From NCBI RefSeq assembly GCF_001483135.1, contig NZ_LNAL01000008.1, forward strand, positions 1,426,001 to 1,490,000: a stretch of DNA of 64,000 nt, given 5' to 3'. Below the pieces are notes generated by a model. That model searched no databases. It was not told where the DNA came from and saw nothing but the letters and a program-made list of their open reading frames with translations. The translations under genes and the position numbers were made by a program. This document shows, piece after piece, positions 1 to 64,000 of the stretch. The stretch's first letter is position 1; each line of letters starts with the position of its first letter. The DNA comes from Solirubrum puertoriconensis (GTDB lineage Bacteria > Bacteroidota > Bacteroidia > Cytophagales > Hymenobacteraceae).

Positions 1-108
1 GCCGATTGACTAAGCGCGCATGTGGCGGTCGGTTGCAGCTCTTTTCGAAGGGGCTTCGGAAGTGCCGCTAGAAGCCAAAAAACGGGCTCTGCGAACGGGA
101 AAGACGTG

Positions 109-116
109 TATATTTG
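109..116 (+). promoter_or_regulatory. Putative -7 promoter box TATATTTG
   Basis: Exact match to the Bacteroidota housekeeping -7 consensus TAnnTTTG, about 60 bases before the start of the metallo-hydrolase gene. No clear -33 element is seen. Confidence 0.5.
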
Positions 117-177
117 TAGCAAAGTACGGCTAAATCTGCGCTCGGCCGCAGCCGTGTTTATCCGCTAACTTCGCTGC

Positions 178-858
178 ATGGAACTTACCTATTACGGACA
201 CTCCTGCTTTGGTCTGCACGTGGGGAGCTCGCGCCTCCTGTTCGACCCGTTTATTCGGCCTAATGCCTTGGCTAAGGACGTACAGGTAGATCAAATCGAA
301 GCTGACTTTATCCTGCTCTCGCACGGCCACTACGACCACGTTTCGGAAGTTGAGGAGATAGGCAAGCGTACCAACGCCCCACTGGTAGGTATGTTTGAGG
401 TGCTGAGCTGGTTTGAGCAAAAAGGTTTGCAGGCGCCGTACAAGATGAATATTGGTGGCCGCGCACAGCTGCCTTTCGGTTCCGTGAAAATGGTACCGGC
501 CGTGCACAGCTCGTCGATGCCCGATGGCTCGTACGGCGGCATAGCTGGCGGCTTTGTGCTCGAAACGGGCGAAGGCAACCTGTACTTTGCTGGCGACACG
601 GCCCTCAGCTACGAAATGAAGCTGATAGGCGAGCGTACCAAGCTCGATGTAGCCCTACTGCCCATCGGCGACAACTTTACCATGGGCATCGACGATGCCC
701 TGCAGGCTGCGCAGTGGCTGGGCGTGAAGCGGGTAGTAGGCATGCACTACGACACCTTCCCGCCGATTAAGCTCGACCACGAAGCCGCTCAGCGCAAAGC
801 ACAAGCGGCTGGCGTGGAGCTGGTGCTGATGAACCTCGGGCAAACGATAAATTTGTAA
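178..858 (+). CDS. UPF0173 family metal-dependent hydrolase (YtkL-like)
   Basis: A 226-residue protein with the metallo-beta-lactamase fold of the UPF0173 family. The metal-binding motif HGHYDH is at residues 49-54, after an N-terminal strand region starting MELTYYGHSCF. A later GDTALS segment and a GMHYDTFP segment supply the other expected metal ligands. Length is normal for the family and there is no signal peptide, so it should be cytoplasmic. The substrate is not known for this family. It is a single gene with its own promoter box at 109-116; the next gene, parA, has a separate promoter box. Confidence 0.9.
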   Translation: MELTYYGHSCFGLHVGSSRLLFDPFIRPNALAKDVQVDQIEADFILLSHGHYDHVSEVEEIGKRTNAPLVGMFEVLSWFEQKGLQAPYKMNIGGRAQLPFGSVKMVPAVHSSSMPDGSYGGIAGGFVLETGEGNLYFAGDTALSYEMKLIGERTKLDVALLPIGDNFTMGIDDALQAAQWLGVKRVVGMHYDTFPPIKLDHEAAQRKAQAAGVELVLMNLGQTINL

Positions 859-894
859 AGTTGCGGAGGTAGCAGTAGTCAGTGAGCAGTTTCT

Positions 895-902
895 TACCTT
901 CG
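895..902 (+). promoter_or_regulatory. Putative -7 box TACCTTCG before parA
   Basis: TACCTTCG is a close variant of TAnnTTTG, leaving a leader of about 45-50 bases before the parA start at 952. The same TACCTT core recurs before other genes in this window (9400, 19464, 22895, 36608, 40516). Confidence 0.4.
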
Positions 903-951
903 AAATCTGACACCTGACAACTGGCCACCGACAACTGTCAACTACAGAGAA

Positions 952-1761
952 ATGGGTAAAATTATTGCGGTAGCAAACCAGAAAGGCGGCGTGGGCAAAA
1001 CCACCTCGTCCATCAACCTCGCGGCGTCGTTGGCTGCGCTGGAATACCGCACCCTGCTGGTAGATGCCGATCCGCAGGCCAACGCTACCTCCGGCGTGGG
1101 CTTCGATCCGAAGGACATTCAACACAGCATTTACGAGTGCATGGTCGATGGCATCAACGCCCAGGATATTATCCTGCAGACCAATATTCTGCCCCACCTC
1201 GATCTGATGCCCTCCCACATCGACCTCGTTGGGGCCGAGGTGGAAATGATCAACCTGCCCAACCGCGAGGAGAAGATGAAGCAGGCGCTGGCCTCGCTGG
1301 TCGATCAGTACGACTTCATCATCATCGACTGCTCGCCCTCGTTGGGCCTGATTACGGTAAACGCCCTCACGGCTGCCAACTCGGTAATCATCCCGGTGCA
1401 GTGCGAATACTTCGCTCTCGAGGGCTTGGGTAAACTCTTGAATACCATTAAAATCATTCAGAGCCGCCTGAACCCGCAGCTCGAGATTGAGGGGATTTTA
1501 CTCACGATGTACGATGTGCGCCTGCGCCTCTCCAACCAAGTAGTGGAAGAGGTGAAGCTGCACTTCCAGCAATTGGTGTTCGATACCATCATCCCGCGCA
1601 ACGTTAAGCTATCGGAATCGCCGAGCTTTGGTATTCCGGTAATCCTGCACGACGCCGAAAGCAAAGGCTCGATCAGCTACCTCAATCTGGCTCGCGAGAT
1701 TGTGGAGAAGAACTCCGTGACGCAGGACGGTGCAGCGTACGCCGAAGGCGACGCTGCCTAG
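952..1761 (+). CDS. parA: ParA/Soj family chromosome partitioning ATPase
   Basis: A 269-residue deviant Walker-type ATPase. The Walker A motif KGGVGKTT is at residues 11-18, followed by the [14 protein letters not shown] segment, and [11 protein letters not shown] is the Walker B region. ParA dimerises with ATP, binds DNA non-specifically and, with ParB bound at parS, moves replicated origins apart. The length and lack of an N-terminal DNA-binding domain match chromosomal Soj-type ParA. The usual downstream parB is absent: the next gene encodes a secreted protein after a strong terminator. The stop codon TAG lies inside a CCTAGG palindrome. Family assignment is sure; whether this is the main chromosomal ParA cannot be told from this window. 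Confidence 0.94.
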
Positions 1762-1783
1762 GTTTACTTAGGATAATAACTCC

Positions 1784-1814
1784 AAGGGCAGCCCCTAACA
1801 GGGCTGCCCTTTTG
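1784..1814 (+). terminator. Rho-independent terminator after parA
   Basis: An 11-bp GC-rich stem (AAGGGCAGCCC with its complement) around a short loop, followed by TTTT, 22 bases after the parA stop. Confidence 0.85.
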
Positions 1815-2083
1815 CTTTATCATGGCTACGCATAAGCGAAATGTATAAGCCCTATTGCGGCAACGATTGGTAAGAATGAAAGAAGCTCAATCTAAAGGGT
1901 TTATAACGAAATATAGTCCAGTTGCACTGTTTATATTATTCCTTGATTAAATAAAAATTTACGATTATTTTATCTAAACAAAACATCAAACCGTACAAGA
2001 TATGTCCTCCTACTGCTACTGCCCTTCTGCCGTGGCTTACCCGTGCTGCTTGCTAATACCCGCCCACCCTCTCTCCACTAGCT

Positions 2084-3040
2084 ATGAAGCATGCTTTACT
2101 GTTATCCCTCCTGACGATGGTTCAGGTGGGATACCTACAGAGTTCGGCTTCAGGGCAAAACCTGATCCAGAACGGAACATTTCGTAATTACCCTGCTACC
2201 CAAGCCAACGCCACAGAGCTGCCTCCCGGTGCCGACCTAGGCGGGTGGAGCAGCGGGCTAGGGTACAGTGGTACCAGTATGTACCCGCCCGACACCAAGA
2301 TATCGGTGCAAACGGGGTCGGTGGTATATTACTACAACATGGTGCGCCAGGGTATTTTTCCTGGTGATGCTGCTAACCGCGTACCTCCTTCGAATACTTG
2401 GCTGTACTCCAACGGCAACCTCAGTGGTTTGCCCATGACGGTGTGGATCCAACGCGTTGAGGTTAGGCCCAATACCGATTACTTGTTCTCCTTCTACACA
2501 TCAAACGCCATCAGTTCCGAGCGCGATTTGCAATCGGATCCGATTCTACGGATCGAGGTAGACGGCAAGCAAGTAGGGAAAGACATACAAGTGTACGACG
2601 AAGCCGATCCGCGCTCGGGCCACAAAGGGCGCGACGCTTGGGACCGGCGGGTGGTACACTTCCAAACGGGGCCCGGCGTTACTAGCATCGAGCTGAAGAT
2701 CATTGACCTGGCTACCGACAGCAACGGCGACGACCTTGCTCTTACGGCCCTCGATTTGCACCAAGCCTCCAAGGAGGAAATCATTCGGGCTACGGCGCCT
2801 AGCGGGCTGGCATTGTTTCCAAATCCCGCGGTTCGCTCTACGCGGCTCGACTTGCGCACATTGCCTGAAGGCAGCTACGAGGTAACCTTTATTGACGCGG
2901 TTGGCCGCTGGATTCGTACCGAGCAACACCTAGGCGGCGAAATGCAGGCAATTGATTTACGCGAGCTTCCTGTGGGTACCTACCTGGTGCGGGTGCGGAG
3001 CGGCAAAACCAACCACACCTTGCGCTTGATGAAAGAGTAG
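2084..3040 (+). CDS. Secreted protein with T9SS C-terminal sorting domain
   Basis: A 318-residue exported protein of unknown function. It starts with a signal peptide (MKHALLLSLLTMVQVGYLQ) and ends in a roughly 75-residue domain with the features of type IX secretion sorting signals: LFPNPA, then ARST/LDLR, LPEGSYEVTFIDAVGR, LPVGTYLVRV and a final LRLMKE. The middle, starting NLIQNGTFR, with many aromatic and Asp/Asn residues, resembles carbohydrate-binding beta-sandwich modules, but this is weak. The start at 2084 is chosen for its signal peptide; an overlapping reading frame from 2002 is judged spurious. It stands alone between the parA terminator and a 50-bp palindrome. It is probably displayed on or released from the outer membrane. 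Confidence 0.8.
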   Translation: MKHALLLSLLTMVQVGYLQSSASGQNLIQNGTFRNYPATQANATELPPGADLGGWSSGLGYSGTSMYPPDTKISVQTGSVVYYYNMVRQGIFPGDAANRVPPSNTWLYSNGNLSGLPMTVWIQRVEVRPNTDYLFSFYTSNAISSERDLQSDPILRIEVDGKQVGKDIQVYDEADPRSGHKGRDAWDRRVVHFQTGPGVTSIELKIIDLATDSNGDDLALTALDLHQASKEEIIRATAPSGLALFPNPAVRSTRLDLRTLPEGSYEVTFIDAVGRWIRTEQHLGGEMQAIDLRELPVGTYLVRVRSGKTNHTLRLMKE

Positions 3041-3093
3041 TTAAGCACCGATGCCTAGGTACTGTACGCGAGTATAACCACAGTTGAATGTTG

Positions 3094-3143
3094 CAACCGG
3101 GTCGGGCCGGAAACACCTAGGTGTTTCCGGCCCGACCCGGTTG
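3094..3143. terminator. Perfect 50-bp palindrome, probable bidirectional terminator
   Basis: The sequence is a perfect palindrome with 25-base arms and no spacer, centred on a CCTAGG. The arms are GC-rich and end in CAACC/GGTTG, followed by TTTG. It lies 53 bases after the stop of the T9SS gene and can fold into a long hairpin in RNA from either strand. Confidence 0.75.
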
Positions 3144-3489
3144 TTTGGGGTTGCTACAAACTGCAGCCAGTGTATTATGATAGACCTTTGGAACAAATAG
3201 AAAAACATTAATTATAATTTTTCTTATTGAGAAATGCTAATCCGGAAGCCGTGGTATGCCGGTGTTTCGCCGGTGAGCTGATCGTTCATAAGGATTATTG
3301 AAAATTAACCCGCCTAGCAAAAGAGCACGAAAAACGGCTTAAGCTCGCTGCTATCACATTTTATCCTCCCTTGGCGTTAGCGTGAAAGCCAGGTGCTAAG
3401 TGCGGGTGTTGCCGCCGGCTCGACTATAACCTTTAATTTTGTGCTCTATCCGGTACTTTGCCGGTAATATCACTCTTAATCATAACACG
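3144..3489 (+). promoter_or_regulatory. Intergenic region with putative -7 box TAATTTTG at 3434-3441
   Basis: This AT-rich gap holds no convincing gene. TAATTTTG at 3434-3441 fits TAnnTTTG and lies about 50 bases before the start of the PA14/ricin-like gene. A TTG at 3409-3411 is a possible -33 element but the spacing is slightly long. Confidence 0.4.
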
Positions 3490-5148: not shown

Positions 5149-5174
5149 CCCTAGGTCATGCAAGGCTCCGCAAC

Positions 5175-5212
5175 AAAAAGGGCTGGCTCCGAGTAGGAGC
5201 CAGCCCTTTTTT
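5175..5212. terminator. Bidirectional terminator between convergent genes
   Basis: A 14-bp stem (AAAGGGCTGGCTCC with its complement), loop GAGTA, with A-run before and T-run after, so it can work on both strands. It sits between the PA14 gene and the original end (5216) of the minus-strand frameshifted gene. Confidence 0.88.
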
Positions 5213-5215
5213 CTG

Positions 5216-5736: not shown

Positions 5737-5753
5737 AGGTGTTAAGTAGCGGA

Positions 5754-7661
5754 TTAGTAAAGCACCCGAAATTTAATCGTCTGCTCTACCTGCCGGAGGG
5801 CTTTAATCACCTCTTGATCGTACTCCCGGTTCACGTCGGTAATCACGTAGCCGATGTGCTCGTTGGTTTTGAGGTACTGACCTAGGATGTTGACAGCGTG
5901 CGCCGCCAGTACGTTGTTGATGTGGGCCAGCACGCCGGGCACGTTGTGGTGAATGTGGATAAGCCGGTGGGCCTGCTGCTGTGGCGGCAATTGAATATTC
6001 GGCAGATTTACGCTTTGAAGGGTGTTGCCGGTATTCACGTAGCCCATAATGCGCTCGGGCACAAACTCGGCAATGTTGCGCTGCGCCTCGGCCGTGCTGC
6101 CGCCCACGTGCGGAGTAAGCAGTACGTTGGGCAAGCCGCGAAGCGGGCTTTCGAAAGGTTCGTCGTTGGTTTTGGGCTCGTACGGAAACACATCCACCGA
6201 AGCGCCACCTAGGTGACCCGAGCGCAAGGCATCGGCCAGGGCCTCGATATCGACGACGTGGCCGCGGGCGTTGTTGAGAAACAGGGCGCCGGGCTTCATC
6301 AAGGCAAACTCGGCCGCGCCAATGAGGTTGGTGTTTTCGCGGCGGCCATCTACGTGCAGCGTTACAATATCGGCTTGGCGCAGCAGCTCCTCCAGCGTGC
6401 GGCACTTGGTGGCGTTGCCGAGCTGCAGCTTCTCGGCAATGTCGTAGTACAGCACCTGCATGCCTACGGCTTCGGCTACCACCGAAAGCTGCGAGCCAAT
6501 GTTGCCGTACCCCACAATGCCCAGCTTTTTGCCCCGGATTTCGAACGCGCCGCGGGCCGATTTATCCCACACGCCGCGGTGCATTTGTTCGCTCTTCACG
6601 GGTAAGCGGCGGGCCAAAGCAATGATTTCACCTAGGGCCAGCTCGACAACCGAGCGCGTGTTGGAAAACGGCGCGTTGAATACGGCAATGCCCCGCTGCA
6701 TGCAGCCGAGTAAATCAATCTGGTTGGTGCCGATGCAAAAGGCACCTACGGCGATGAGGCGATTGGCGCGCTCCAGCACCCGGGCCGTAACCTGCGTTTT
6801 GGAGCGGATACCTAGTATGCTGACGCCCTCGACGCGCTCCATCAGTTCCTCCTCATCGAGCCCGCCGGGTACCACCTCCACCTGATAACCCTCTTCGCGA
6901 AACAGGCGCTCGGCCGTAGGTTCGATGTTTTCGAGCAGCAGCGCGCGAATGCGGTTTTTAGGGTAGGAGAGGGTCATCGGCAACTTGTTTTGGTACAGAA
7001 ACTCGTCGAAAGAAGGCACTACCTCATCGGCTTGGGCCACCACGGCAGGGCGGGCTACGTTTTCGGTGAAGGCGTAAAAGCGGGCTGCCAGGCCGGCTTC
7101 GCGAATCTGGTAATCGGTAATGCCGTCGCCGAGCACGTACACCGGGGCGTCGTCGAGGCCGAGCAGGTGCAGCTGCCTGATTTTGCCGCCGTCCTGGCTT
7201 AAGGGGTTGTTCGGGTCGAAGCCGGTGATGCGGCCCTCGGCATCGAAGGTGAACGTGTTGGCCAGTACCTGCTCGGGCGGAATGCCAAACTCGGCCACCA
7301 CCGGCTCAATAAACTCCCGAAAGCCGCTGCTCACGATGTACACGCGGTCGGCGTGTTGCTGAAAAAACGCCTGATTGCGCCGAATGCTCTCCGTAACCTT
7401 GGTGTGCAGGTGCTGCACCAGCTCGTGCAGGTGCTCGTGCCGGGCAGGCAGCAGCTCGATGCGTCGCCTGAGCGATTCGCTGAACGACACGGAGCCGTCC
7501 ATGCCGCCATCGGTGAGGGCTTTTATCTGAGCCACTACCTGCTCGCGCTCGGGGCGTCCGCGCAGGGCTATGTCAGCAAGCTCATCAAGCGCCTCTACCT
7601 GCGTAAAGGTGCTGTCGAAATCGATAACGATGTAAGGAAGCGGCGGTGTGGTGTTGGCCAT
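5754..7661 (-). CDS. serA: Bifunctional phosphoserine phosphatase / D-3-phosphoglycerate dehydrogenase
   Basis: A 635-residue fusion of two serine-pathway enzymes. Residues 1-225 are a HAD phosphatase of SerB type: nucleophile motif DFDST with D14 and D16, motif II at SSGF (111-114), and GDGITD at 178-183. Residues 235-560 are a D-2-hydroxyacid dehydrogenase of SerA type: NAD motif GYGNIG at 384-389 and the catalytic set R466, E495 and H518. A C-terminal ACT domain (about 565-635), starting with RLIHIHHNVPGVLAHINN, is the usual serine-feedback site. The protein would catalyse the first and last steps of serine synthesis from 3-phosphoglycerate. All key residues of both halves are present. It is cytoplasmic. 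Confidence 0.93.
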   Translation of the reverse strand: MANTTPPLPYIVIDFDSTFTQVEALDELADIALRGRPEREQVVAQIKALTDGGMDGSVSFSESLRRRIELLPARHEHLHELVQHLHTKVTESIRRNQAFFQQHADRVYIVSSGFREFIEPVVAEFGIPPEQVLANTFTFDAEGRITGFDPNNPLSQDGGKIRQLHLLGLDDAPVYVLGDGITDYQIREAGLAARFYAFTENVARPAVVAQADEVVPSFDEFLYQNKLPMTLSYPKNRIRALLLENIEPTAERLFREEGYQVEVVPGGLDEEELMERVEGVSILGIRSKTQVTARVLERANRLIAVGAFCIGTNQIDLLGCMQRGIAVFNAPFSNTRSVVELALGEIIALARRLPVKSEQMHRGVWDKSARGAFEIRGKKLGIVGYGNIGSQLSVVAEAVGMQVLYYDIAEKLQLGNATKCRTLEELLRQADIVTLHVDGRRENTNLIGAAEFALMKPGALFLNNARGHVVDIEALADALRSGHLGGASVDVFPYEPKTNDEPFESPLRGLPNVLLTPHVGGSTAEAQRNIAEFVPERIMGYVNTGNTLQSVNLPNIQLPPQQQAHRLIHIHHNVPGVLAHINNVLAAHAVNILGQYLKTNEHIGYVITDVNREYDQEVIKALRQVEQTIKFRVLY

Positions 7662-7742
7662 GGTGCGGGTAAGGTAGGGCAGAAACGATTAGGCCGCTAC
7701 CGGCAGAGCTCCAACGGAAGCAGGTAACGGCGGCACAGGGCA

Positions 7743-30697: not shown

Positions 30698-32179
30698 GTG
30701 AAAAAACGTTTCCGCCTATTCTCCTTTGTAATCAGTGGCGCTTTTGCTCTGTTGCTGAGCAGCCCTGCCGCCGCGCAAACACAAGCACCTGCCGACAGCG
30801 TTGATATGCTGGTAAAACAGGCCATGCAGCAATTGCGCATACCTGGCTTGCAGCTGGCCGTGGTGCGCCACGGGCAAGTGGTGAAGTTGGGCAACTACGG
30901 CCTGAGCAACGTGCAGGACTCGGTGCCGGTAACCAGGCAAACGCGCTTTTTCCTGAACTCTATCACCAAAGCCTTTGTGGGCGTGGCTGTAATGCAACTG
31001 GTAGAGGCCGGTAAGCTCGATGTAGCCGCGCCGGTTGGCCGCTACCTGCCCGAGCTGCCCGCCGCTTGGCACCCCGTTACGGTGCGGCAGCTGCTTACGC
31101 ATACCTCCGGCCTGCCCGACATCATGCCCGAGGATGCGATGGTCACCGAAAACAACGAAAAGGCCGCCTGGGCGCAGGTGCAAACCCAACCGCTCGACTT
31201 CCCGGCCGGCCAGCAATTTGCCTACAACCAAACCAACTACCTGCTCCTGGGTAAGCTCATCGATAAGCTCAGCGGGCAGCCCTTTGCGCAGTTTATCCGG
31301 CAGCGCCAGCTCGAGGTAGTGGGCATGCCCCGCACCACCGCCGGCGACGCCCACGACGTGCTGCCCCGCATGGCCCGAGGCTACACCTACACGCAGTACA
31401 TTGATGGGCAGGTGCGCCGTGGCAAGCAGATGCGCAATTTGTTCGAGGTATTCCCGCCCTCGCTGCGCACGGCTGCGGGCATGAGCTCCACAGCCGAGGA
31501 AATGGCCCGCTGGGTAATTGCCCTGCAACAAGGCAAGCTGCTGCAACCCGCCAGCATCACCACCCTCTGGACGCCTGGCCGCCTCAACGACGGTACGCAG
31601 CGCAGCTTCGGCGGCAAGCTCACCGGCTACGCCCTAGGTTGGCCCACGGTTGACAGGCCCGAGCACCCGGCCGTGGCGCCCGTTGGGGGCGGCCGCTCGG
31701 CCGTGTTCGTGTACCCCCACGACGACCTCGCCATTGTTGTGCTCACCAACCTGCAAGGCGCCAGCCCCGAGCGGTTCGTCGACGAGCTGGCAGCCTGCTA
31801 CATTCCCGATATGCGCGCGGCCGATGGCTTTGGCTTGCCGCCCGTGGTGCGCGCCCTGCACCGCACGTTGCGCCAGCGCGGTTTCCAGCACGCCGAGGCC
31901 GAGGTGCGCAAAGCCAAGCGCCAAAACCCCAATTACCAGCTAACCGAAGCCGACGTGAATGCCTGGGGCTATATCCTGATGCAGCAAGGGCAAATGGCCA
32001 ACGCCCTGTCCGTGTTTCAGTTGAACGTGCGTTTGTACCCCAACAGCGCCAACACCTACGACAGCCTGGCCGAAGCCTACGCCGAGATGGGCAACAAGAA
32101 GCTGGCAACCCAGAACTACGCCCGGGCTTTGCAGTTGAACCCGCAAAACAAGACGGCCGCTGAGTACCTGAAAAACTAA
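30698..32179 (+). CDS. Beta-lactamase-fold serine hydrolase with TPR tail
   Basis: A 493-residue exported protein. Signal peptide MKKRFRLFSFVISGAFALLL, then a class C beta-lactamase/esterase fold with SxxK at S88-K91 (NSITKAF). The second motif, usually YxN, here reads Y176-N-Q178 (FAYNQTNYLLLG), with Gln in the Asn position. The last 130 residues (about 365-493) form TPR-like helices (YILMQQGQMANALSVFQLN and TYDSLAEAYAEMGN). The start codon is GTG. It may act on peptides or esters in the periplasm. A strong terminator follows. Confidence 0.88.
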   Translation: MKKRFRLFSFVISGAFALLLSSPAAAQTQAPADSVDMLVKQAMQQLRIPGLQLAVVRHGQVVKLGNYGLSNVQDSVPVTRQTRFFLNSITKAFVGVAVMQLVEAGKLDVAAPVGRYLPELPAAWHPVTVRQLLTHTSGLPDIMPEDAMVTENNEKAAWAQVQTQPLDFPAGQQFAYNQTNYLLLGKLIDKLSGQPFAQFIRQRQLEVVGMPRTTAGDAHDVLPRMARGYTYTQYIDGQVRRGKQMRNLFEVFPPSLRTAAGMSSTAEEMARWVIALQQGKLLQPASITTLWTPGRLNDGTQRSFGGKLTGYALGWPTVDRPEHPAVAPVGGGRSAVFVYPHDDLAIVVLTNLQGASPERFVDELAACYIPDMRAADGFGLPPVVRALHRTLRQRGFQHAEAEVRKAKRQNPNYQLTEADVNAWGYILMQQGQMANALSVFQLNVRLYPNSANTYDSLAEAYAEMGNKKLATQNYARALQLNPQNKTAAEYLKN

Positions 32180-32594: not shown

Positions 32595-34349
32595 CTAATA
32601 CCCCGCCGCCGTATCGTCGCCGCGTGGGTCGGCGCCGCCTACCAGGGTACCATCATGGCGCCGCTCAATCATATCGATGCGGCCCCAGGGGCTGCGTGGG
32701 TTTAGTTTGTAGCCGCGGCGCTCCAGCTCGGTGCGGGCAGCGGGGGAGAGGGCGCCTTCTTCCACGTCGATGTGGTCGGGGAGCCACTGGTGGTGCAGGC
32801 GGGGCGCCGCCACGGCCTGTTGCGGATCGAAGCCGTATTCGAGCACATTGAGCGTAGCCTGCAGCACGGAGGTGATGATGGTACTGCCGCCGGGGGTGCC
32901 TACTACTAAGCACACCTGGCCTTTTTCGGTAACGATAGTGGGCGTCATGGACGAAAGCATGCGCTTGCCGGGCCCGATTGCGTTGGCCGTGCCGCCAATT
33001 ACCCCATACATATTTGGTACGCCGGCCTTCACCGAAAAATCGTCCATTTCGTTGTTCAGCAGAAAGCCCGCGCCTTGCACCACTACCAGCGAGCCGTAGC
33101 CGCCGTTAAGCGTGGTGGTGCAGCTTACCGCGTTGCCCTGCGCATCTACAATGCTGTAATGGGTCGTCTGGTCCGACTCGTAGCCGGGTAGCCCTGTACC
33201 GGCCGTTACCTGCGCCGAGGGCGTGGCCACGCTGGTTGGCGCAACGCCCTGCATACGCTGCTTAAGGTATTTGGCATCGAGTAGCTGCGCCACGGGTACC
33301 TGGCCGAAATCTGGGTCGCCGAGGTAAGTGGCGCGGTCGGCGTACACGCGGCGCTCGGCCTCGGTAATAAGGTGTACACCTGCGGCGGAGTGCCAACCTA
33401 GGCGGCCGAGGTTATACGGCTCCAGCATCTGCAGCATCTGGAGCAAGGCCACGCCCCCCGACGAGGGCGGCGGCATGCTGATGATGTCGTACTGGCGGTA
33501 GCGGCCGCGCACGGGCTCGCGCCATGCGGGTTGGTATTGGTCGAGGTCGGCCTGGCTGATGATGCCTCCGCCGCGCTGCATTTCGGCCAGCAACAGGCGG
33601 GCGGTTTCGCCCTGGTAAAAGCCCGCGCGGCCGTTTTGCTGAATCCGACCTAAGGCCGCTGCCAGCTCAGGATACTTGATAACGTCGCCGGGTTGCCATG
33701 GGCGGCCTTCGGGGTGGACATAGGTCGGCACATGCTTATTAACACTTAGCATATGCGGCCGAACCGAGTTGAGCCCCGCTGCTTCCTTAGACGTTAGCTG
33801 CAAGCCTTGGGCAGCCAGCTCGGCGGCGGGGCGCACCAAATCGGCCCACGGCAACTTACCCAGTTTCTGATGCAACGCTACCATACCCGCCACCGTGCCG
33901 GGCACGCCGGCGGCCAAGTGGCCCCGCGTGCTCAGGCCGGCGCGCACGTTTCCTTGGGCATCGAGGTACATATCGCGCGTGGCTGCCAGCGGCGCTTTTT
34001 CGCGAAAATCAAGCGCGCCCACCGAGCCATCGGCGGCGCGGTACACCACAAAGCCGCCGCCGCCAATATTGCCCGCCACAGGCAGCGCCACGGCCAAAGC
34101 AAACTGCACCGCCACAGCTGCGTCGTAAGCGTTGCCGCCTTGCCGCAGTACCTCCAGGCCAATGCGCGTAGCCTCGGGGTGCGCCGATACCACCATGGCC
34201 TGGCGGGCCGTAACGGGCGCCGCAGCCCTAGGTGCCGGCAGGGCAGTAGCAGCGGCGGAGGCAGTGTTGGCAGCCGGTTGGCGTTGGCAAGCGGGCGAGC
34301 CAACCAGCACAGCGGCCAGGCCCAGAGCAAGTAAGGAGCGGTGGAGCAT
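32595..34349 (-). CDS. ggt: Gamma-glutamyltransferase
   Basis: A 584-residue N-terminal nucleophile hydrolase that cleaves and transfers gamma-glutamyl groups from glutathione and related peptides. A lipobox, GSPAC, at about residue 21 makes it a lipoprotein. The substrate-binding segment GGFVVYRAADG and the active Thr in QTTHYSIVDAQGN are clear; cleavage before this Thr yields two subunits. Later blocks MLSSMTPTIV and LVVGTPGGSTIITSVLQ fit. Length is normal. It is divergent from the OmpA/PD40 gene with only 54 bases between the starts. Confidence 0.95.
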   Translation of the reverse strand: MLHRSLLALGLAAVLVGSPACQRQPAANTASAAATALPAPRAAAPVTARQAMVVSAHPEATRIGLEVLRQGGNAYDAAVAVQFALAVALPVAGNIGGGGFVVYRAADGSVGALDFREKAPLAATRDMYLDAQGNVRAGLSTRGHLAAGVPGTVAGMVALHQKLGKLPWADLVRPAAELAAQGLQLTSKEAAGLNSVRPHMLSVNKHVPTYVHPEGRPWQPGDVIKYPELAAALGRIQQNGRAGFYQGETARLLLAEMQRGGGIISQADLDQYQPAWREPVRGRYRQYDIISMPPPSSGGVALLQMLQMLEPYNLGRLGWHSAAGVHLITEAERRVYADRATYLGDPDFGQVPVAQLLDAKYLKQRMQGVAPTSVATPSAQVTAGTGLPGYESDQTTHYSIVDAQGNAVSCTTTLNGGYGSLVVVQGAGFLLNNEMDDFSVKAGVPNMYGVIGGTANAIGPGKRMLSSMTPTIVTEKGQVCLVVGTPGGSTIITSVLQATLNVLEYGFDPQQAVAAPRLHHQWLPDHIDVEEGALSPAARTELERRGYKLNPRSPWGRIDMIERRHDGTLVGGADPRGDDTAAGY

Positions 34350-39404: not shown

Positions 39405-40442
39405 TTAAGCAAAAAGGCGCGGGTCGAGCACGAGGGCGGCCGTAAGGTCGGGAGCAGTGCCAGGGGCTTGCACGTGCAGGCGCTCGGCGGGTATGCGGTA
39501 CATGGCTTGCAGGCGCTCGGCGGTATGCTGATCGGGCACCAGCACGCGGTCGGCATGGGGGAGAGCCAAGCGTTCCAGGGCCTCACCCCAACCCCGATCT
39601 ACGGGTGAAAGTAGGTCGGTGGCCAGCTGCGTAACACGCAACACCAGCGGCCGGTGGGTAATATGCCGAATTTCAACTCCGGCCAGCCACACTGGCCAAT
39701 CCGGCGCGAAAACCACATCAAAGGTAGTGCTGTGGGCCAAACGCACGGCGTGGCGGGCGTATTGGATGATGCGAAAGTTCATGCCGTCGAGGTCAGCGGC
39801 CGAGCTCAGTACGGGTTCTGGCTGCGCCGAAACCGACTCATCGAGCCGCTCCGGAGCGTGCTCCACGGCTGGCGCGTTGGCAGGCGCCAATTGCCCGGGC
39901 ACCGCCGAGGCGAAAGTTGGTACGTCGGCGGGGGGGCTCTCGGGCTTGGGAGCGGGTGCGGTTGCCTCCGGTGCGGCGTTGTCGGCAGGAGCACCTAGGG
40001 GCAGGTCGTCGGCCTGCTCGTCGAAACTCGTGTATGGGCTGCTCAGCTCGGCGGCTTCCAGCACCCCGGGCTCGGAGGCGGGTTGCCGTTCCAGCACTTC
40101 AGGTGTAGGAGTGCTGCCGATGTAGGGCGTAGCAGGTACCTGAAAGCCGCTTGGCTGCTCATTGGTCGGTTTGCTGCTGGCCGTGGTGTAGGTGCTGCTT
40201 CCGATGTAGGGGTAGGCCGGGGCGGCGGTACCTAGGGTGGCAAAATCGGGAGCCGGGGGCAAGGCGCCGCCTAGGTGCTGCGCGGTGGCATTGCCGGGCA
40301 GGGCAGCGGCCGCAACGGGCTCGGCAAGCCATAGCTGAATACCGGCGGTAGCGGGCAAGGCATGCGCCAGCGGTAGCGCTTCGGACGCGGCGTCCCAGCC
40401 CAGTAGCAGCACAGAAGCAGAAGCGGTGTTGAGCATAGGCAT
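39405..40442 (-). CDS. Half-length glycosyltransferase-like protein with disordered insert
   Basis: About 345 residues. The N-terminus (SVLLLGWDAASEALPLAHAL) and the later part (FDVVFAPDWPVWLAG, LVLRVTQLATDLL, DRVLVPDQHTAERLQ) look like the acceptor-binding half of GT4/GT5 glycogen-synthase-like enzymes, which read FDVIHAHDW at that place. The C-terminal nucleotide-sugar domain is missing; the protein ends soon after the helix. In between is about 150 residues of Pro/Ala/Ser/Glu-rich, probably disordered sequence, with the repeated PYIGS. It may be a non-catalytic partner or a decayed gene. Starts at 40442 and 40436 are both possible. Confidence 0.6.
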   Translation of the reverse strand: MPMLNTASASVLLLGWDAASEALPLAHALPATAGIQLWLAEPVAAAALPGNATAQHLGGALPPAPDFATLGTAAPAYPYIGSSTYTTASSKPTNEQPSGFQVPATPYIGSTPTPEVLERQPASEPGVLEAAELSSPYTSFDEQADDLPLGAPADNAAPEATAPAPKPESPPADVPTFASAVPGQLAPANAPAVEHAPERLDESVSAQPEPVLSSAADLDGMNFRIIQYARHAVRLAHSTTFDVVFAPDWPVWLAGVEIRHITHRPLVLRVTQLATDLLSPVDRGWGEALERLALPHADRVLVPDQHTAERLQAMYRIPAERLHVQAPGTAPDLTAALVLDPRLFA

Positions 40443-40593: not shown

Positions 40594-43053
40594 ATGGACA
40601 ATACCACGATTCAGGAAAACAATTACATGATTAACGACTTGGCCCAGAAGGCTAAGCAGGATTTTACGCCTGGCCAAGTCGTAAGTGCCGAAGTCGTTCC
40701 GGGTACCGCCGATTTCCGCTTTACCGCCGACAACGGGGTGGTGCTGCTCGTGCAGGTAATCACCGATAAAATTTTGCGCTTCCGCTACAGCACCGACGGC
40801 TACTTCGCGCCCGATTTCAGCTACGCCTTCGAGGGCGGGGTGCCGCCTCGCGAAACCACCACGCTGCTCGAGTTTGTAGAAAAGGACGACCACTACCGCC
40901 TCACCACGGGCCGCCTCATCTGCATCGTGGGCAAGGAGGGCATGCACGTGCGCCTGCTCAACCGCTCGGGCGTGGTGCTGTGCGAGTACGAGAAGGGTTT
41001 CCACTGGGAGTACGATTACGAGTCGGGCAACGACATCGTGAAGATGAGCCAGCAGGTGCAGCCCGGCGTGCATTACTTCGGCCTCGGCGACAAGCCCGCC
41101 AACATGAACCTGCGCGGGCAGCGCTTCTGCAACTGGGGCTCCGATACCTACGGCTACGTAAAAGGCTCCGATCCGCTCTACAAGAACATTCCGTTCTTCA
41201 TGGCCCTGCACCAAAAGCTGGCCTACGGTCTGTTCTTCGACAACTCCTTCAAGAGCTACTTCGACTTTGCCGCCGAGCGCGCCGACGTAACCTCGTTTTG
41301 GGCGCACGGGGGCGAGATGAACTTCTACTTCATCTACGGCCCTACGCTGCTCGAAGTAACCCAGCAGTACACCCACTGCCTCACAGGCACGCCCGAGATG
41401 CCGCCGCTGTGGGCCCTAGGTTACCACCAGTGCAAGTGGAGCTACTACCCCGAAAAGCTGTTCCGCGGCATCGGCGAGGAGTTCCGGAAGCGCCAGATTC
41501 CCTGCGATGCGCTGTACCTCGACATCGACTACATGGATGGATACCGTTGCTTTACCTGGCACCCCGAACACTTTCCTGAGCCCAAAAAGATGGTGCAGGA
41601 GCTGGCCAACGACGGCTTCAAGACCATCGTCATCATCGACCCCGGCATCAAAATCGACCCGCAATACCCGGTGTGGCAGCAGGGCTTCGAGAACGACTAC
41701 TTCTGCCGCCGCGGCGACGGGCCGCTAATGAAAGGCTCGGTGTGGCCGGGCCTGTGCCACTTTCCCGATTTCACGCGCACCACGGTGCGCGAGTGGTGGA
41801 GCGGCCTGTTTAAGGGCCTGATCGAGGACGTGGGCGTGCGCGGCGTGTGGAACGACATGAACGAGCCGGCCGTGTTCGAGAAGGGCACCTTCCCCGACGA
41901 TGTGCGCTTCGATTACGACGGCAACCCCTGCACGCACAAAAAGGCGCACAACGTGTACGGCATGCAAATGGCCCGCGCCACCAACGAGGGCGTAAAGCGC
42001 TTTGCGCACCCCAACCGGCCGTTCACCATCACGCGCAGCACCTACTCAGGCGGGCAGCGCTACTCTTCGGGCTGGACGGGCGACAACGTGGCCTCGTGGG
42101 AGCACCTGTGGCTGGCCAACATTCAGTGCCAGCGCCTAAGCATTTCGGGCTTCTCCTTTATCGGCTCCGATGTGGGCGGTTTCATCAACACGCCCGATGG
42201 CGAGCTGTACGTGCGCTGGGTTGCCTTGGCGGCGTTTCACCCGTTCTTCCGTACGCACTCGTCGGGCGACCACGGCGACCAGGAGCCTTGGTCGTTTGGC
42301 GAAGAGTTTACCGACCTGGCGCGCCACTTCATCGAGCTGCGCTACCGCCTGCTGCCCTACATGTACACCACGTTTTGGCAGTACGTGCAGCACGGCACGC
42401 CCATGCTGCGCCCTTTGGCGTTCATCGACCAAAATGACATCGAGACGTACCAGCGCATGGCCGAGTTTGCCCTTGGCGACCACCTGCTGGTGTGCCCCGT
42501 AACGCAAGCCGGCGTGGATGGCCGCTGGATGTACCTGCCCAAAGGCCAGTGGTACTACTGGTGGACCGACGAAGCCCGCGACGGTGGCGCCGAGGTTTGG
42601 GCCCCCGCTGGCCTCGACCGCATTCCGCTGTACGTGCGCGCCGGGGCTGTAATTCCGCTGCGCCCCGTGATGCAATACGTGGAGGAGCTGCCCGTAACCG
42701 AGCTGACGCTGCACGTGTACTACAAAAACGGCAAGGAAACCAGCACCCTCTACGACGACGGCGGCGAAGGCTACGGCTACCAGCAAGGCCAGTACACGCT
42801 GCGCCGCTACACCGTAACGGGCACCGCTACCAGCCTGAAGCTGCAGCAAGAAACCGAAGGCGAGCTGACGCCCAGCTGGGCCACTTGCCGCGTGGTGCTG
42901 CACGGCCTGCCCCTAGGTGCCGAGCTGCTGGCCGTTACGGCCGATGGCAAAGAGCTGGCGGTGGAAGTTGCCGCCGCGGCCAATGGCGGCCAGGAGCTAC
43001 CGCAGGTGGTGGTGCCAGCCGGCTTTGCCGAGCTGGTATTTCGCACGGCATAA
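40594..43053 (+). CDS. GH31 alpha-glucosidase, cytoplasmic type
   Basis: An 819-residue GH31 enzyme without a signal peptide. The nucleophile is D421 in GVWNDMNEPAVF, and the acid/base Asp is in FIGSDVGGF. GYHQCKWSYY and the C-terminal beta domains (RIPLYVRAGAVIPLRP) match cytosolic alpha-glucosidases of Bacteroidota. It should release glucose from maltose-type oligosaccharides after import. Together with glgB and the secreted GH31 it forms an alpha-glucan group. A possible attenuator precedes it and a 38-bp palindrome terminator follows. Confidence 0.95.
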   Translation: MDNTTIQENNYMINDLAQKAKQDFTPGQVVSAEVVPGTADFRFTADNGVVLLVQVITDKILRFRYSTDGYFAPDFSYAFEGGVPPRETTTLLEFVEKDDHYRLTTGRLICIVGKEGMHVRLLNRSGVVLCEYEKGFHWEYDYESGNDIVKMSQQVQPGVHYFGLGDKPANMNLRGQRFCNWGSDTYGYVKGSDPLYKNIPFFMALHQKLAYGLFFDNSFKSYFDFAAERADVTSFWAHGGEMNFYFIYGPTLLEVTQQYTHCLTGTPEMPPLWALGYHQCKWSYYPEKLFRGIGEEFRKRQIPCDALYLDIDYMDGYRCFTWHPEHFPEPKKMVQELANDGFKTIVIIDPGIKIDPQYPVWQQGFENDYFCRRGDGPLMKGSVWPGLCHFPDFTRTTVREWWSGLFKGLIEDVGVRGVWNDMNEPAVFEKGTFPDDVRFDYDGNPCTHKKAHNVYGMQMARATNEGVKRFAHPNRPFTITRSTYSGGQRYSSGWTGDNVASWEHLWLANIQCQRLSISGFSFIGSDVGGFINTPDGELYVRWVALAAFHPFFRTHSSGDHGDQEPWSFGEEFTDLARHFIELRYRLLPYMYTTFWQYVQHGTPMLRPLAFIDQNDIETYQRMAEFALGDHLLVCPVTQAGVDGRWMYLPKGQWYYWWTDEARDGGAEVWAPAGLDRIPLYVRAGAVIPLRPVMQYVEELPVTELTLHVYYKNGKETSTLYDDGGEGYGYQQGQYTLRRYTVTGTATSLKLQQETEGELTPSWATCRVVLHGLPLGAELLAVTADGKELAVEVAAAANGGQELPQVVVPAGFAELVFRTA

Positions 43054-43073: not shown

Positions 43074-43111
43074 AAAAAGCCCTAGGTGCTGCGCAGCACC
43101 TAGGGCTTTTT
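43074..43111. terminator. Perfect 38-bp palindrome terminator
   Basis: Perfect 19-base arms without a spacer; starts AAAAAGCCCTAGG and ends CCTAGGGCTTTTT, so each arm has one CCTAGG and the structure works in both directions. It lies 20 bases past the GH31 stop. Confidence 0.88.
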
Positions 43112-45605: not shown

Positions 45606-45735
45606 GCTGCGGTGGAGCTTGTGCGCGAAAGTACGCGGGCGACGTGGGGGTGATTAGGGGCGATGCGGGCAGACGGCCTAGGTCAGAAACAACTTAGTTG
45701 CTCGGCCAACCTAGGCCTAGGCGGCCAGCCGTTGC

Positions 45736-56593: not shown

Positions 56594-56653
56594 GGTAGAA
56601 ACGGTGCGCTGCCTAGGTCCTTGGAGCTGGTTAGGCATTGTGCACCTAGGAAT

Positions 56654-60128: not shown

Positions 60129-62045
60129 ATGCATCCCGTAATCACCCCCGAGCGCGTACCCGTAAGTATCTACTCCGATTCGGAGCAGGCATCGGTAGCA
60201 GTGGCCCAGCAAATCGCCGATCTTATCCGGCAGCGCCACGGCGAAGGCCGGCCTTGCGTACTAGGTTTGGCTACTGGCTCGTCGCCCACGCGGGTGTACG
60301 AGGAGCTCGTGCGCATGCACCGCGAAGAGGGGCTGTCGTTCCGCAACGTCATCACCTTCAACCTCGACGAGTACTACCCCATGCAGCCCGATTCGCTGCA
60401 GAGCTACGTGCGCTTTATGCACGAGTACTTGTTCGACCACGTCGACATTCCGGCCGAGAATATCCACATCCCCAACGGCACCATTCGGCAGGAGGAGGTA
60501 GCCGAGTATTGCCGCCGCTACGAGGCCGATATCGAAGAAGCTGGCGGCATCGATTTGCAGCTGCTAGGCATTGGCCGCACGGGCCATATCGGCTTCAACG
60601 AGCCGGGCTCGGGAGCTAGCTCGCGCACCCGCCTTATCACGCTCGACCACATTACGCGCACCGATGCGGCCTCCGATTTCTATGGCGAGGAAAATGTGCC
60701 GCGCCGCGCCCTCACGATGGGTGTAGGCACCATCCTGGAGGCGCGGCAAATTGTGCTAATGGCCTGGGGCGAAGGCAAAGCCGCCGTAATCAAGCGCATG
60801 GTCGAAGGCGAACCCACCGACTCGGTACCCGCCACTTACCTGCAGCGCCACCCCGCCGTGCAGGTGGTGCTCGATGAGGCCGCCGCCGCCGAGCTGAGCC
60901 CCCGCAAAACGCCGTGGCTGGCGGGCATTAGCTCGAACTGGCAACACGAAGCCACGGTGCGCAAAGCCGTAACCTGGCTGGCGCGCCACCTGCAAAAACC
61001 CATTCTGAAGCTCACCGACGAGGATTACAACGAAAACGGCCTGTCGGATTTGCTGGCCGAATCGGGCCAAGCGTACGGCATCAACATTCGGGTGTTCAAC
61101 CAGCTGCAGCACACCATTACCGGCTGGCCTGGCGGCAAACCCAACGCCGACGACTCGCACCGGCCCGAGCGAGCTACGCCGTTCCCCAAACGCGTGCTCA
61201 TCTTCTCGCCGCACCCCGACGACGACGTAATTTCGATGGGCGGCACGTTGCTGCGCCTCGTCGACCAGGGCCACGACGTGCACGTGGCTTACCAGACCTC
61301 AGGCAACATTGCCGTGTTCGACGACGAGGCTATTCGCTTTGCCGAGTTTGTGGCCGATTACGACGCCGCCCTAGGTTTGCCCGGCGAGAAACCAGCCGAG
61401 AGCTTGTACAAGCGGGTGGTTGATTCGCTTCGCCAGAAAGCGCCCGGGCAGGTAGACACCCCTGAGGTGCAGCAGATTAAAGGCTTGATTCGGCGCGGCG
61501 AGGCTAAATCGGCGTGCCGCCTGGCGGGCATTCCCGACGAGAATGCGCACTTCATGGATTTGCCTTTCTACGAAACCGGCCGCGTGCGCAAAAAGCCCCT
61601 AGGTGAAGAAGACATTCAGCTGACCATCGACCTGCTGAACAAGATTCAGCCGCACCAGATCTACGCCGCCGGCGACTTATCTGATCCGCATGGCACGCAC
61701 CGCGTGTGCTTGTCGGCCATTTTCCAGGCCGTGGAACGCCTGAAAGCCGAAGGCACCGAGTGGCTAAAGGATTGCTGGGTGTGGCTGTACCGCGGCGCGT
61801 GGCAGGAGTGGGACATCGACCAGATTGAAATGGCCGTACCCATATCGCCCGAAGAGCTAACGCGCAAGCGCCGCGCCATCTTCAAGCACCAGTCGCAGAA
61901 AGACCGGCCGTTGTTTCCGGGGGCCGACCAGCGCGAGTTCTGGCAGCGAGCCGAAGAGCGCAACCGCACCACCGCCAAAATTTACGACCAGTTAGGCCTG
62001 CCCGAGTACGAAGGCATTGAGGCCTTTGTACGCTGGAAATACTAG
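60129..62045 (+). CDS. nagB: Glucosamine-6-phosphate deaminase-like / PIG-L deacetylase fusion
   Basis: A 638-residue cytoplasmic fusion. Residues 1-265 are NagB-like: LATGSSPTRVYEEL, FNLDEYYPM with D80, and GRTGHIGFNEPGS with H153 and E158. The position of E. coli NagB Asp141 is Thr151 here. Residues about 355-560 are PIG-L/LmbE-type: FSPHPDDDVISMGGTL (zinc motif HPDD near 362-365) and a late SDPHGTHR. PIG-L proteins remove acetyl groups from GlcNAc derivatives; NagB turns GlcN6P into Fru6P and ammonia. This pairing suggests sequential amino-sugar use. The start is set at 60129; the frame extends to 60039. Confidence 0.93.
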   Translation: MHPVITPERVPVSIYSDSEQASVAVAQQIADLIRQRHGEGRPCVLGLATGSSPTRVYEELVRMHREEGLSFRNVITFNLDEYYPMQPDSLQSYVRFMHEYLFDHVDIPAENIHIPNGTIRQEEVAEYCRRYEADIEEAGGIDLQLLGIGRTGHIGFNEPGSGASSRTRLITLDHITRTDAASDFYGEENVPRRALTMGVGTILEARQIVLMAWGEGKAAVIKRMVEGEPTDSVPATYLQRHPAVQVVLDEAAAAELSPRKTPWLAGISSNWQHEATVRKAVTWLARHLQKPILKLTDEDYNENGLSDLLAESGQAYGINIRVFNQLQHTITGWPGGKPNADDSHRPERATPFPKRVLIFSPHPDDDVISMGGTLLRLVDQGHDVHVAYQTSGNIAVFDDEAIRFAEFVADYDAALGLPGEKPAESLYKRVVDSLRQKAPGQVDTPEVQQIKGLIRRGEAKSACRLAGIPDENAHFMDLPFYETGRVRKKPLGEEDIQLTIDLLNKIQPHQIYAAGDLSDPHGTHRVCLSAIFQAVERLKAEGTEWLKDCWVWLYRGAWQEWDIDQIEMAVPISPEELTRKRRAIFKHQSQKDRPLFPGADQREFWQRAEERNRTTAKIYDQLGLPEYEGIEAFVRWKY

Positions 62046-62077
62046 CCCCGCTGGGTGCCCCTACGCAGTAGCTCAGC

Positions 62078-62118
62078 AGCCCCTAGGTGCCCACCCAGCA
62101 GTGCGGTACCTAGGGGCT
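62078..62118 (+). terminator. Terminator after the NagB/PIG-L gene, CCTAGG in both arms
   Basis: 11-bp stem AGCCCCTAGGT/ACCTAGGGGCT with a 19-base loop and TTT after it, 32 bases past the stop. Confidence 0.82.
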
Positions 62119-62294
62119 TTGCTCTGAAGCCGGTAGCGAAGTTACAATGCCTTGTTTAGCTGGGTTTTGGTAGCGAAAGGCCGAGCTTTTCAGTTGGTTT
62201 ATTCATAATCGCAATACTTGTATTTTAAATAGGTAAAATATTATAAATTGACGGAGAGTAGCTTTTCATTCCCACACCATACTCCCTGTCAACT
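62119..62294. promoter_or_regulatory. AT-rich leader region before the second susC-like gene
   Basis: A strongly AT-rich stretch at about 62195-62255 suits a promoter, but no exact TAnnTTTG is seen. No gene. Confidence 0.4.
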
Positions 62295-64000
62295 ATGCCC
62301 AACACCTACTCGCTTTCGAGGCGGCCTCTGCTGTGGAGCTGGCTCGCAATATGCCTATTGCTCTGCCTAGGTACTACCAGCCAAGTCTACGCTCAGCAGC
62401 AGACATATACCCTGCAAGGCCGCGTTACGGATGAGCGCGGACAGGGCCTGCCCGGCACCACGGTGTTGGTGGGCGGCACCACGCAAGGCGCCTCTACCGA
62501 TGCCGACGGCAATTACAGCTTCAGCGCGCAGCTGGCGCCGGGCAGCTACAGCCTCACGTTTTCGAGCATTGGCTACACGGCCCAAAGCCGCTCGCTTACC
62601 CTAGGTAGCACCACCAGCATCACCACCAACGTAACCATGCGCGAGGCCCGCCAAAGCCTCGACGACGTGGTAGTGGTGGGCTCCACGGTAAGCACCAACC
62701 GGCGCGAGTTGGGCAATGCCATCAGTACCGTATCGGGGCAGGAGCTAACGCGCAGCGGCACAGGTGCGGTGCTGAACTCGCTGCAGGGCAAAGTGCCCGG
62801 CGCGCAAATCGTGCAAAACTCCGGCGACCCATCGGGCTCTATTTCGGTGCGCCTGCGTGGCATTAAGTCGCTGTCGGGGCCTTCCGATCCGCTGTATGTA
62901 ATCGATGGTGTTATCATCAGCAACAACAGCACCAACGTGTCGCAGCTGGCCTTGTCGAACGACGTGGGCACGGCGCAGGTGGGCCAAAACCGCTTGGCCG
63001 ATTTGAACCCCAACGACATCGAGAGCATCAACGTCATCAACGGAGCGGCGGCGGCGGCCATCTACGGCTCGCGTGCGGCCAACGGGGTAGTGCTGATTAC
63101 GACCAAGCGGGGCCGTACCGGCGAGGTGCAGGTATCGGCCTACGCCAGTGTCAACCTAAACGAGCTGCGTAAATCGGTGCCCGTAAATACCTTCGGCAAG
63201 CAATTTGGCTTCCGCGATTTGCGCCTCTACACCATTGGCGGCGTAACGCCGGCGCAAGTAGCCGCCAACCCCGGCACCACCACCATCGGCATCAACCGGG
63301 CGGGCGTAACCACGCAGCTGGCCTCTAATCTGGTAGATGTGCAGCGTTACGACTACTTCAATGACATTTTCCGCCGGGGCTACGGTACCGATAACGGGGT
63401 GTCCATATCGGGCGGTACAGAGAATACGCAGGCTCTTGTGTCGCTGGGATATTTCCAGAACCAGGGCATCATCGAAGGCACCAACTTCAGGCGCTACAAC
63501 ATTCGGGCACGCCTGAACCAACGCATTACCAAGTGGGCCAGCCTAACGGCCGGGGTAGCTTACAACAACAGCGACGCCGACGAAAAAGCCAACGGCAACG
63601 TGTTTTACAGCCCCATCAACTCCGTTAACATCACCAACAATATCTACGACATCAACCAGCGCGATGCCAACGGCAACCTGCAGGCCGTGGAGCCCACCCG
63701 CGTAAACCCGCTCTCGACCATCGAGGACATGACTTTCACGCAGCGCGTGAACCGCACCATCAGCGACGTGCAGCTGAAACTGACTCCTTTTAAAGGCTTT
63801 TCGGTGGACTACCTGATTGGGGCCGATGTGTACGGGCAAGCGGGGCAGAGCTACATTCGGCCGTACCCGTACCAAGCGCAAGCCGGCCTGCCACTGGCGC
63901 GCTACCCCTTCGGTTTTGCCTCGAATGCCCAAGCCAACTCGGTGCAGATCAACTCCGACCTGAACCTGGCTTACGACCGGCAAATAGGCGAACAATTTAA
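62295..64000 (+). CDS. susC: SusC/RagA TonB-linked receptor, partial (runs off the window)
   Basis: An open frame from ATG 62295 to the window end with no stop, at least 568 residues. Signal peptide (LLWSWLAICLLLCLGTTSQV), carboxypeptidase-like regulatory domain (LQGRVTDERGQGLPGTTVLV), plug domain (LNSLQGKVPGAQIVQNSGDP, YVIDGVIIS, IESINVINGAAAAAIYGSRA) and the first barrel strands. It differs clearly from the other SusC at 56654-59779, so it transports something else. A susD partner would be expected just after the window. It lies 249 bases after the NagB/PIG-L gene, on the same strand. Confidence 0.95.
   Translation, partial: MPNTYSLSRRPLLWSWLAICLLLCLGTTSQVYAQQQTYTLQGRVTDERGQGLPGTTVLVGGTTQGASTDADGNYSFSAQLAPGSYSLTFSSIGYTAQSRSLTLGSTTSITTNVTMREARQSLDDVVVVGSTVSTNRRELGNAISTVSGQELTRSGTGAVLNSLQGKVPGAQIVQNSGDPSGSISVRLRGIKSLSGPSDPLYVIDGVIISNNSTNVSQLALSNDVGTAQVGQNRLADLNPNDIESINVINGAAAAAIYGSRAANGVVLITTKRGRTGEVQVSAYASVNLNELRKSVPVNTFGKQFGFRDLRLYTIGGVTPAQVAANPGTTTIGINRAGVTTQLASNLVDVQRYDYFNDIFRRGYGTDNGVSISGGTENTQALVSLGYFQNQGIIEGTNFRRYNIRARLNQRITKWASLTAGVAYNNSDADEKANGNVFYSPINSVNITNNIYDINQRDANGNLQAVEPTRVNPLSTIEDMTFTQRVNRTISDVQLKLTPFKGFSVDYLIGADVYGQAGQSYIRPYPYQAQAGLPLARYPFGFASNAQANSVQINSDLNLAYDRQIGEQF

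Follow-up and report, generated by a model that had tools for sequence, protein, structure and literature searches.

CCTAGG as the possible core of an uptake-sequence-like watermark in Solirubrum puertoriconensis and its relatives

The stretch of DNA analysed here (the window) comprises 64,000 nucleotides of Solirubrum puertoriconensis (contig NZ_LNAL01000008.1, positions 1,426,001 to 1,490,000), throughout which the hexamer CCTAGG is iterated. Ten window proteins were scanned and some are of Bacteroidota type (type IX secretion system (T9SS) sorting domains, SusC/RagA). An initial annotation had put the number of CCTAGG copies at about 100 and the random expectation at about 20, at a GC content of roughly 62%. 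The count is 102. An order-3 model gives an expectation of 20.7, in line with that estimate, whereas 100 dinucleotide-preserving shuffles give a lower mean of 15.83 (standard deviation 3.87, largest 29); the measured GC content is 60.8%. CCTAGG shows the largest deviation among the 4096 hexamers scored in the window under the order-3 model, and most CTAG tetramers do lie within it (102/163), as had been noted. The sites are found both within and between genes, also as described: simple gene models place 72 of the 102 in coding DNA, 27 in intergenic DNA and three on edges. The family and individual members of it are listed below, with open reading frame abbreviated to ORF.

1..64000, either strand: the 102 CCTAGG sites that form the family, of which 92 read ACCTAGG[A/C/G].
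43075..43110, both strands: AAAAGCCCTAGGTGCTGCGCAGCACCTAGGGCTTTT, a perfect palindrome made up of GCACCTAGGGC as an inverted pair, forming a terminator-like hairpin with a T run, 22 bases past the ORF end at 43053.
62076..62120, + strand: inverted pair with CCTAGG at positions 62082 and 62109, which folds into a terminator-like hairpin with TTT behind it and starts 31 bases past the ORF end at 62045.
56612..56650: CCTAGGT...GCACCTAGG, an inverted pair with the favoured spacing of 33 bp.
45677..45721: inverted pair 33 bp apart (45677, 45710), with a third copy at 45716 directly after.
40231..40275: ACCTAGGG...GCCTAGGTGC, an inverted pair of the alternative arrangement, 39 bp apart.
1757..1762, + strand: CCTAGG whose TAG (1759-1761) is the stop codon of ORF 952-1761.
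33397..33402: isolated site, typical of most of the family, with nearest neighbours at 31633 and 34227.

The whole genome of S. puertoriconensis (G000; 4.80 Mb in 8 contigs) contains 6212 copies of CCTAGG, compared with 136 of the reversed word GGATCC, which served as a control. Eight genomes of the genus comprise three with high counts (6212, 5678 and 5325; G000 and its two sisters, G005 and G006) and five with low counts (123-249). Sampled DNA of the three high genomes is ~88% identical to each other and that of three low ones (G007, G003 and G002) ~79% identical to G000. Samples of 180-369 kb from each of these six genomes form the high and low samples referred to below. CCTAGG occurs at 1.27-1.39 per kb in the high samples (1.27 in 264 kb of G000) against 0.02-0.04 in the low. 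The next word, CCTAGC, reaches 18-34 per 100 kb in the high samples against 14-19 in the low; even in G000, at 34, this is only ~2 times the low level. The enrichment of CCTAGG is confirmed and is stronger than first stated, and the genome-wide and related-genome counts that had been proposed as a check place it neither near expectation nor within the window alone. No other iterated word of comparable strength was found in the samples of G007, G003 and G002. TGCGCA is ~1.7- to 2-fold enriched in all six samples, high and low alike, and the 369 kb sampled from G007 contain 19 copies of a distinct repeat family with GAGACATCTC.

The repeated unit extends beyond the hexamer, and the original framing as a palindrome was too narrow. 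In the window 87 of the 102 copies read ACCTAGGS and 92 read ACCTAGG[A/C/G], on either strand. Across the clade formed by the three high genomes these shares are 75-84% and 83-91%, respectively, and ACCTAGGT is rare. The flank asymmetry is also present in intergenic DNA and is thus not solely a codon effect. Orienting the sites by the flanking A reveals a further signal, GGTGC(C), between -28 and -23, which corresponds to the inner portion of a second, inverted site. Among the clade's 1086 oriented sites, with orthologous sites of the three genomes counted separately, TGCC stands at -26 in 98 and at -27 in 35, against a median of 8 per offset. An inverted partner half-site is enriched ~26 bp from the core in this clade. 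Inverted pairs at 33 bp number three in G000, seven among 472 sites in G005 and three in G006. This is the commonest close pair distance in G000 and G005, whereas in G006 other distances equal or exceed it. The 39-bp full inverted pair had no matches in collections of genome contigs and viral contigs, from which near relatives may be missing, so that this result carries little weight. The strand counts of ACCTAGG[A/C/G] in one sampled region of each high genome (132/146, 203/212 and 181/212) argue against the replication-linked mark that had been suggested; strands are near-balanced in the clade overall and in most 40-kb bins.

By the simple gene models, CCTAGG density in the high genomes is 1.8-2.6 per kb in intergenic DNA compared with 1.0-1.1 per kb in coding DNA. 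Coding copies lie mainly in the frame NNC CTA GGN (214/242, 286/314 and 252/279). The initial annotation was right that the word forces the rare leucine codon CTA, which makes up 5.7-9.0% of leucine codons in the three high samples against 2.8-3.9% in the three low; 31-42% of CTA codons in the high genomes sit in C-CTA-GG. Intergenic terminator-like hairpins were called with a simple in-house finder, a hairpin qualifying on both strands being counted twice. Of these, 7/100, 11/124 and 12/126 contain CCTAGG in the high genomes (7-10%), against 0/126, 0/67 and 0/64 in the low, and the inverted pair is present in three hairpin entries per high genome.

Alignments between genomes bear on how the sites arise and persist. 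Aligned G000 sites are kept at 197/276 positions in G005 and 174/279 in G006, and at 2/160, 1/137 and 1/116 in the three low congeners. In the alignments to these congeners 7/167, 5/142 and 5/121 sites are gapped (3.5-4.2%), hardly more often than background hexamers (2.5-3.0%), which indicates that CCTAGG sites arise by substitution and not by insertion. A comparison of G005 with G006 at 75 intergenic sites gives a divergence of 0-5% for the C and G positions of the core (two each) and of 7-13% for the flanking A and the central T and A, against a mean of 16% away from the site; the three positions either side of the site diverge by 19-38%. Perfect ACCTAGGS occurs 96-116 times per 100 kb, whereas one-mismatch forms exceed the low congeners by only 20.5-40.5 per 100 kb, chiefly at the flanking A. 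The raw one-mismatch totals (144-164 per 100 kb) are above the number of perfect copies because the low congeners already stand at 123.

DNA of G000 that aligns to neither sister carries 0.65 CCTAGG per kb, compared with 1.32-1.43 where both sisters align and 2.36 in the 16 kb where just one of them does. Of the six longest stretches free of CCTAGG, four (11.0, 6.5, 6.0 and 4.3 kb) fall within the ~33 kb of G000:C8:1368114-1401621, where they align to none or almost none of the sampled relatives. This region is probably an island. A mobilisable plasmid-like contig of 12.5 kb (G000:C4) contains two CCTAGG, and an 89-kb contig contains 25 in the 20 kb sampled. G000:C4 matches three Hymenobacter plasmids over their mobilisation genes. 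A related plasmid, pHB of Hymenobacter sp. APR13, has an annotated DprA gene beside a phosphoribosyltransferase (L255 10347-11940).

Among 204 genomes of the Hymenobacteraceae, 13 contain more than 1000 CCTAGG. Fourteen others exceed 1000 CCTACCC per strand, the other 190 genomes having 110-835; the fourteen do not overlap with the CCTAGG-high set and have 169-661 CCTAGG each. The ten CCTAGG-high genomes outside the clade were sampled at 10-40 kb each, later at 120 kb for G070 and G109. G070, G076 and G158 prefer ACCTAGGT or ACCTAGGC, with more CCTAGC. G109 and G125 prefer C before the core (G109 being of the CCCTAGG type), G140 has mixed flanks including ACCTAGGS, and G080, G082 and G172 lean to GGCCTAGGCC on 34 sites altogether. 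The sample of G164 holds six CCTAGG sites. CCTACCC was confirmed in the two genomes sampled further, G060 and G083, although part of the G060 signal is a short CCCTAC tandem repeat. Counted from the start of the core, G109 has A-rich positions at +21/+22 and G083 (CCTACCC type) has one at +22. One 20-kb locus from each of Hymenobacter wooponensis and H. fodinae shows GGCCTA. All versions found contain CCTA, which occurs ~490-940 times per 100 kb in motif-bearing samples and ~260-430 times in most others; several samples with no known version, mostly of lower GC, reach 450-690.

These dialects appear to follow phylogeny. On a one-gene tree of 49 rows (45 named Hymenobacter loci out of 80, the 35 from other organisms being left unused, plus G000, G005, G006 and G007) 5 changes account for the dialect labels, compared with a mean of 8.8 after shuffling, so that the labels seem to cluster. 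Each named species was labelled from 18-22 kb, and where the signal was weak, as in H. metallilatus, it was given no dialect. A further 20 family genomes with low or middling CCTAGG were surveyed with one stretch each, of which 18 were usable once contigs of 1.0 and 1.6 kb had been dropped. CCTACC is prominent in two. Such a survey misses cases, as G124 and G162 went unflagged yet exceed 1000 CCTACCC per strand genome-wide. Hymenobacter sp. BT188 (L168) and H. roseosalivarius (L170) are rich in GCCCCC, and BT188 also in CCCCCC; this is possibly another version or simple C-runs. GGATCC is near-absent (0-10 copies) in many family genomes and present at 100-300 copies in others, which suggests restriction avoidance.

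Elsewhere in the window, ORF 5754-7661 (635 aa) matches SerB over residues 11-197, below the model cut-off, and phosphoglycerate dehydrogenase over residues 230-635, and is an apparent SerB-SerA fusion.

Taken together, we put at roughly 0.48 the probability that CCTAGG is the core of a self-recognition watermark, comparable in its working to the DNA uptake sequences found in Neisseria and Haemophilus. On this view the natural-transformation machinery would have a surface DNA receptor that prefers DNA with the CCTAGG core, recombination of the DNA so taken up would enrich the motif by molecular drive, and changes in the receptor would create new dialects. The sequence evidence for a watermark is good; from it we infer competence, the receptor and the function. 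Excerpts of PMC1626085 and PMC3630211 give as traits of uptake signal sequences (USS) and DNA uptake sequences (DUS) a lack of orientation bias, an origin by point mutation, a preference for non-coding DNA, inverted pairs at terminators, and dialects.

Several other explanations have to be weighed against biased uptake. The initial annotation likened CCTAGG to HIP1, the highly iterated palindrome (HIP) of cyanobacteria. That likeness holds for genome-wide iteration, HIP-like density and conservation in sisters; it fails for the palindrome, given the asymmetric flanks here and CCTACCC elsewhere. For HIP1 and alternate HIPs, Elhai proposed a ratchet of methyltransferase and mismatch repair (PMC4390886, in excerpt). 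A word-specific DNA methyltransferase coupled to mismatch repair, making and keeping copies, would suit the palindromic core, a density within the HIP range of 500-2500 per Mb and words that differ between genomes (same excerpt). It would also suit G006, which has matches to both Vsr (PF03852) and PF00145. Both are without match in G000 and G005, however, and Vsr/5-methylcytosine repair is rejected as the cause for the clade. The solitary methylase that had been suggested found no support either: a search of PF00145, PF01555, PF02086 and PF02384, with other families such as PF07669 and phosphorothioation genes outside its scope, gave no family common to the three high genomes. The single match in G000 is a PF01555 gene on G000:C4 (L033) and that in G005 is PF02384, whereas G006 has PF00145, PF01555 and PF02384. 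Asymmetric flanks, a partner ~26 bp off and the non-palindromic CCTACCC also misfit a methylase site of 6-8 bp, and we regard such a ratchet as improbable. A neutral mutational or gene-conversion bias towards CCTAGG, with no dedicated recognising protein, seems more doubtful again. The commonest alternative in aligned sisters is indeed CCCAGG/CCTGGG, one transition away (24/79 differences in G005, 67/105 in G006), and CCCAGG is approximately halved in G000 and G005. Yet CCTAGG has gained more (~125 per 100 kb) than CCCAGG has lost, and in G006 CCCAGG shows no clear reduction; conversion of CCCAGG as the sole source is rejected. Moreover, the flanks, the partner element and the dialects suggest recognition over tens of bp. 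Least probable of all is a polar signal for recombination or replication, for example Chi, KOPS or a mark for segregation. The two strands are unevenly occupied in some 20-kb stretches of CCTACCC genomes, and PMC1939737, in the portion available, compares Chi and HIP1 with uptake sequences. Against this, strands in the CCTAGG clade are near-balanced, fully palindromic versions such as ACCTAGGT cannot carry direction, and the CCTACC imbalance largely follows gene orientation.

Near-balanced strands, palindromic versions and the lack of a shared methyltransferase family among the four searched leave protein recognition of a strict core. The protein would recognise a core that is short and strict, in some genomes together with a second element 20-30 bp off, and its specificity would shift between lineages. 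Such a protein could instead be an abundant chromosomal one, nucleoid-associated or chromosome-organising and probably a dimer, with selection keeping ~1 site per kb and dialects reflecting changes in its specificity. We consider this the main rival, though an unlikely one. Inverted half-sites at 33 bp, TGCC at -26/-27 and bipartite sites of ~40 bp would fit a DNA-bound dimer, and the core is conserved in intergenic DNA. The consensus, on the other hand, is very strict, with the one-mismatch excess well below the number of perfect copies, and a surplus of perfect over mismatched copies is atypical of regulatory binding sites (PMC1626085, excerpt). Five congeners lack high CCTAGG, the three measured being ~79% identical, and replacing a dialect at thousands of sites through site-by-site selection would be hard. 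Most USS/DUS traits are present here wherever they can be tested, and for this reason we prefer molecular drive by biased uptake to a chromosomal binding protein.

A number of observations weigh against biased uptake. Two USS/DUS traits do not hold throughout, the exceptions being the orientation of CCTACCC and the uneven presence of the flanking element. CCTACC lies on the coding strand at 122:46 in G060 and 90:24 in G083 and is uneven in 20-kb stretches of CCTACCC genomes (for example 30/10 and 10/29); this coding-strand preference differs from known uptake sequences. The strand test of CCTACC slightly lowered the standing of biased uptake and of a separately evolved third uptake system, and slightly raised that of a polar signal. 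The second element was not seen in the samples of G070 or G060. Under a two-of-three parsimony rule, which scores shared gains as losses, 411/504 sites were kept and 93/504 changed away, with 31 gains within the clade, and this excess of losses appears to speak against strong accumulation of CCTAGG at present. Moreover, motif-bearing terminators are a minority of terminators, and 177 of the 204 family genomes fall below both thresholds. The USS core is 9 bp and not palindromic in the excerpt of PMC1626085, whereas the strict part here is 6-8 bp. Lastly, no literature on natural transformation in Hymenobacter was found among works judged by their titles and the beginnings of their abstracts.

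In 2006 uptake sequences were known only from Pasteurellaceae and Neisseriaceae, according to the excerpt of PMC1626085. We tentatively suggest, as a possibility somewhat short of an even chance, that Hymenobacter carries a third uptake-signal system of independent origin, which would be the first in Bacteroidota and would have at least five versions around CCTA, some of them palindromic, and fast turnover. If so, the turnover of a watermark within one family would be fast enough for its origin and replacement to be watched, and the same drive could explain HIP1 in cyanobacteria. A Bacteroidota case with several versions and many motif-free close relatives would open the origin and the replacement of uptake signals to direct testing, and a Hymenobacter watermark might explain gene-flow barriers among these species. 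Our literature search found no work joining CCTAGG with highly iterated palindromes or with Hymenobacter, or Hymenobacter with methylome, and, judged by title, none on uptake sequences and natural transformation in Bacteroidetes. The letters CTAG are absent from the main text of Elhai's 2015 HIP paper (PMC4390886), and CCTAGG is printed once in the available portion of PMC1939737, in a table beside under-represented words.

CCTAGG offers a comparison for the unsolved role of HIP1, apparently one without a shared methylase. As with HIP1 and the alternate HIPs in the excerpt of PMC4390886, it is a GC-rich iterated palindrome of comparable density, with other words in some relatives. It differs from HIP1 in having no methyltransferase family, among the four searched, common to the three high genomes, in its asymmetric flanks, in a non-palindromic dialect and in belonging to Bacteroidota. 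DUS are non-palindromic and CCTAGG-type cores often palindromic; the phylum is another, and here transformation and a receptor, the part played by ComP for DUS, are presumed. DUS are also longer than the strict part of 6-8 bp found here. The likeness to the USS of Pasteurellaceae, as given in the excerpt of PMC1626085 (Redfield 2006), covers ~1 site per kb, perfect copies outnumbering singly mismatched ones, an origin by point mutation, subclade-specific types, a strong core with, in some genomes, weaker one-sided flanking elements and, in the CCTAGG clade only, no orientation bias. The flanks of USS are AT-rich segments in that excerpt, whereas here they are the GGTGC half-site of the clade or an A-rich position (G109, G083), with none seen in G070 and G060. 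Like the DUS dialects of Neisseriaceae (Frye 2013, PMC3630211, excerpt), the sites number thousands of copies, form dialects that follow phylogeny and occur as inverted pairs at terminators. In both a core is kept in all dialects, CTG in the DUS of Neisseriaceae (same excerpt) and CCTA in the Hymenobacter family.

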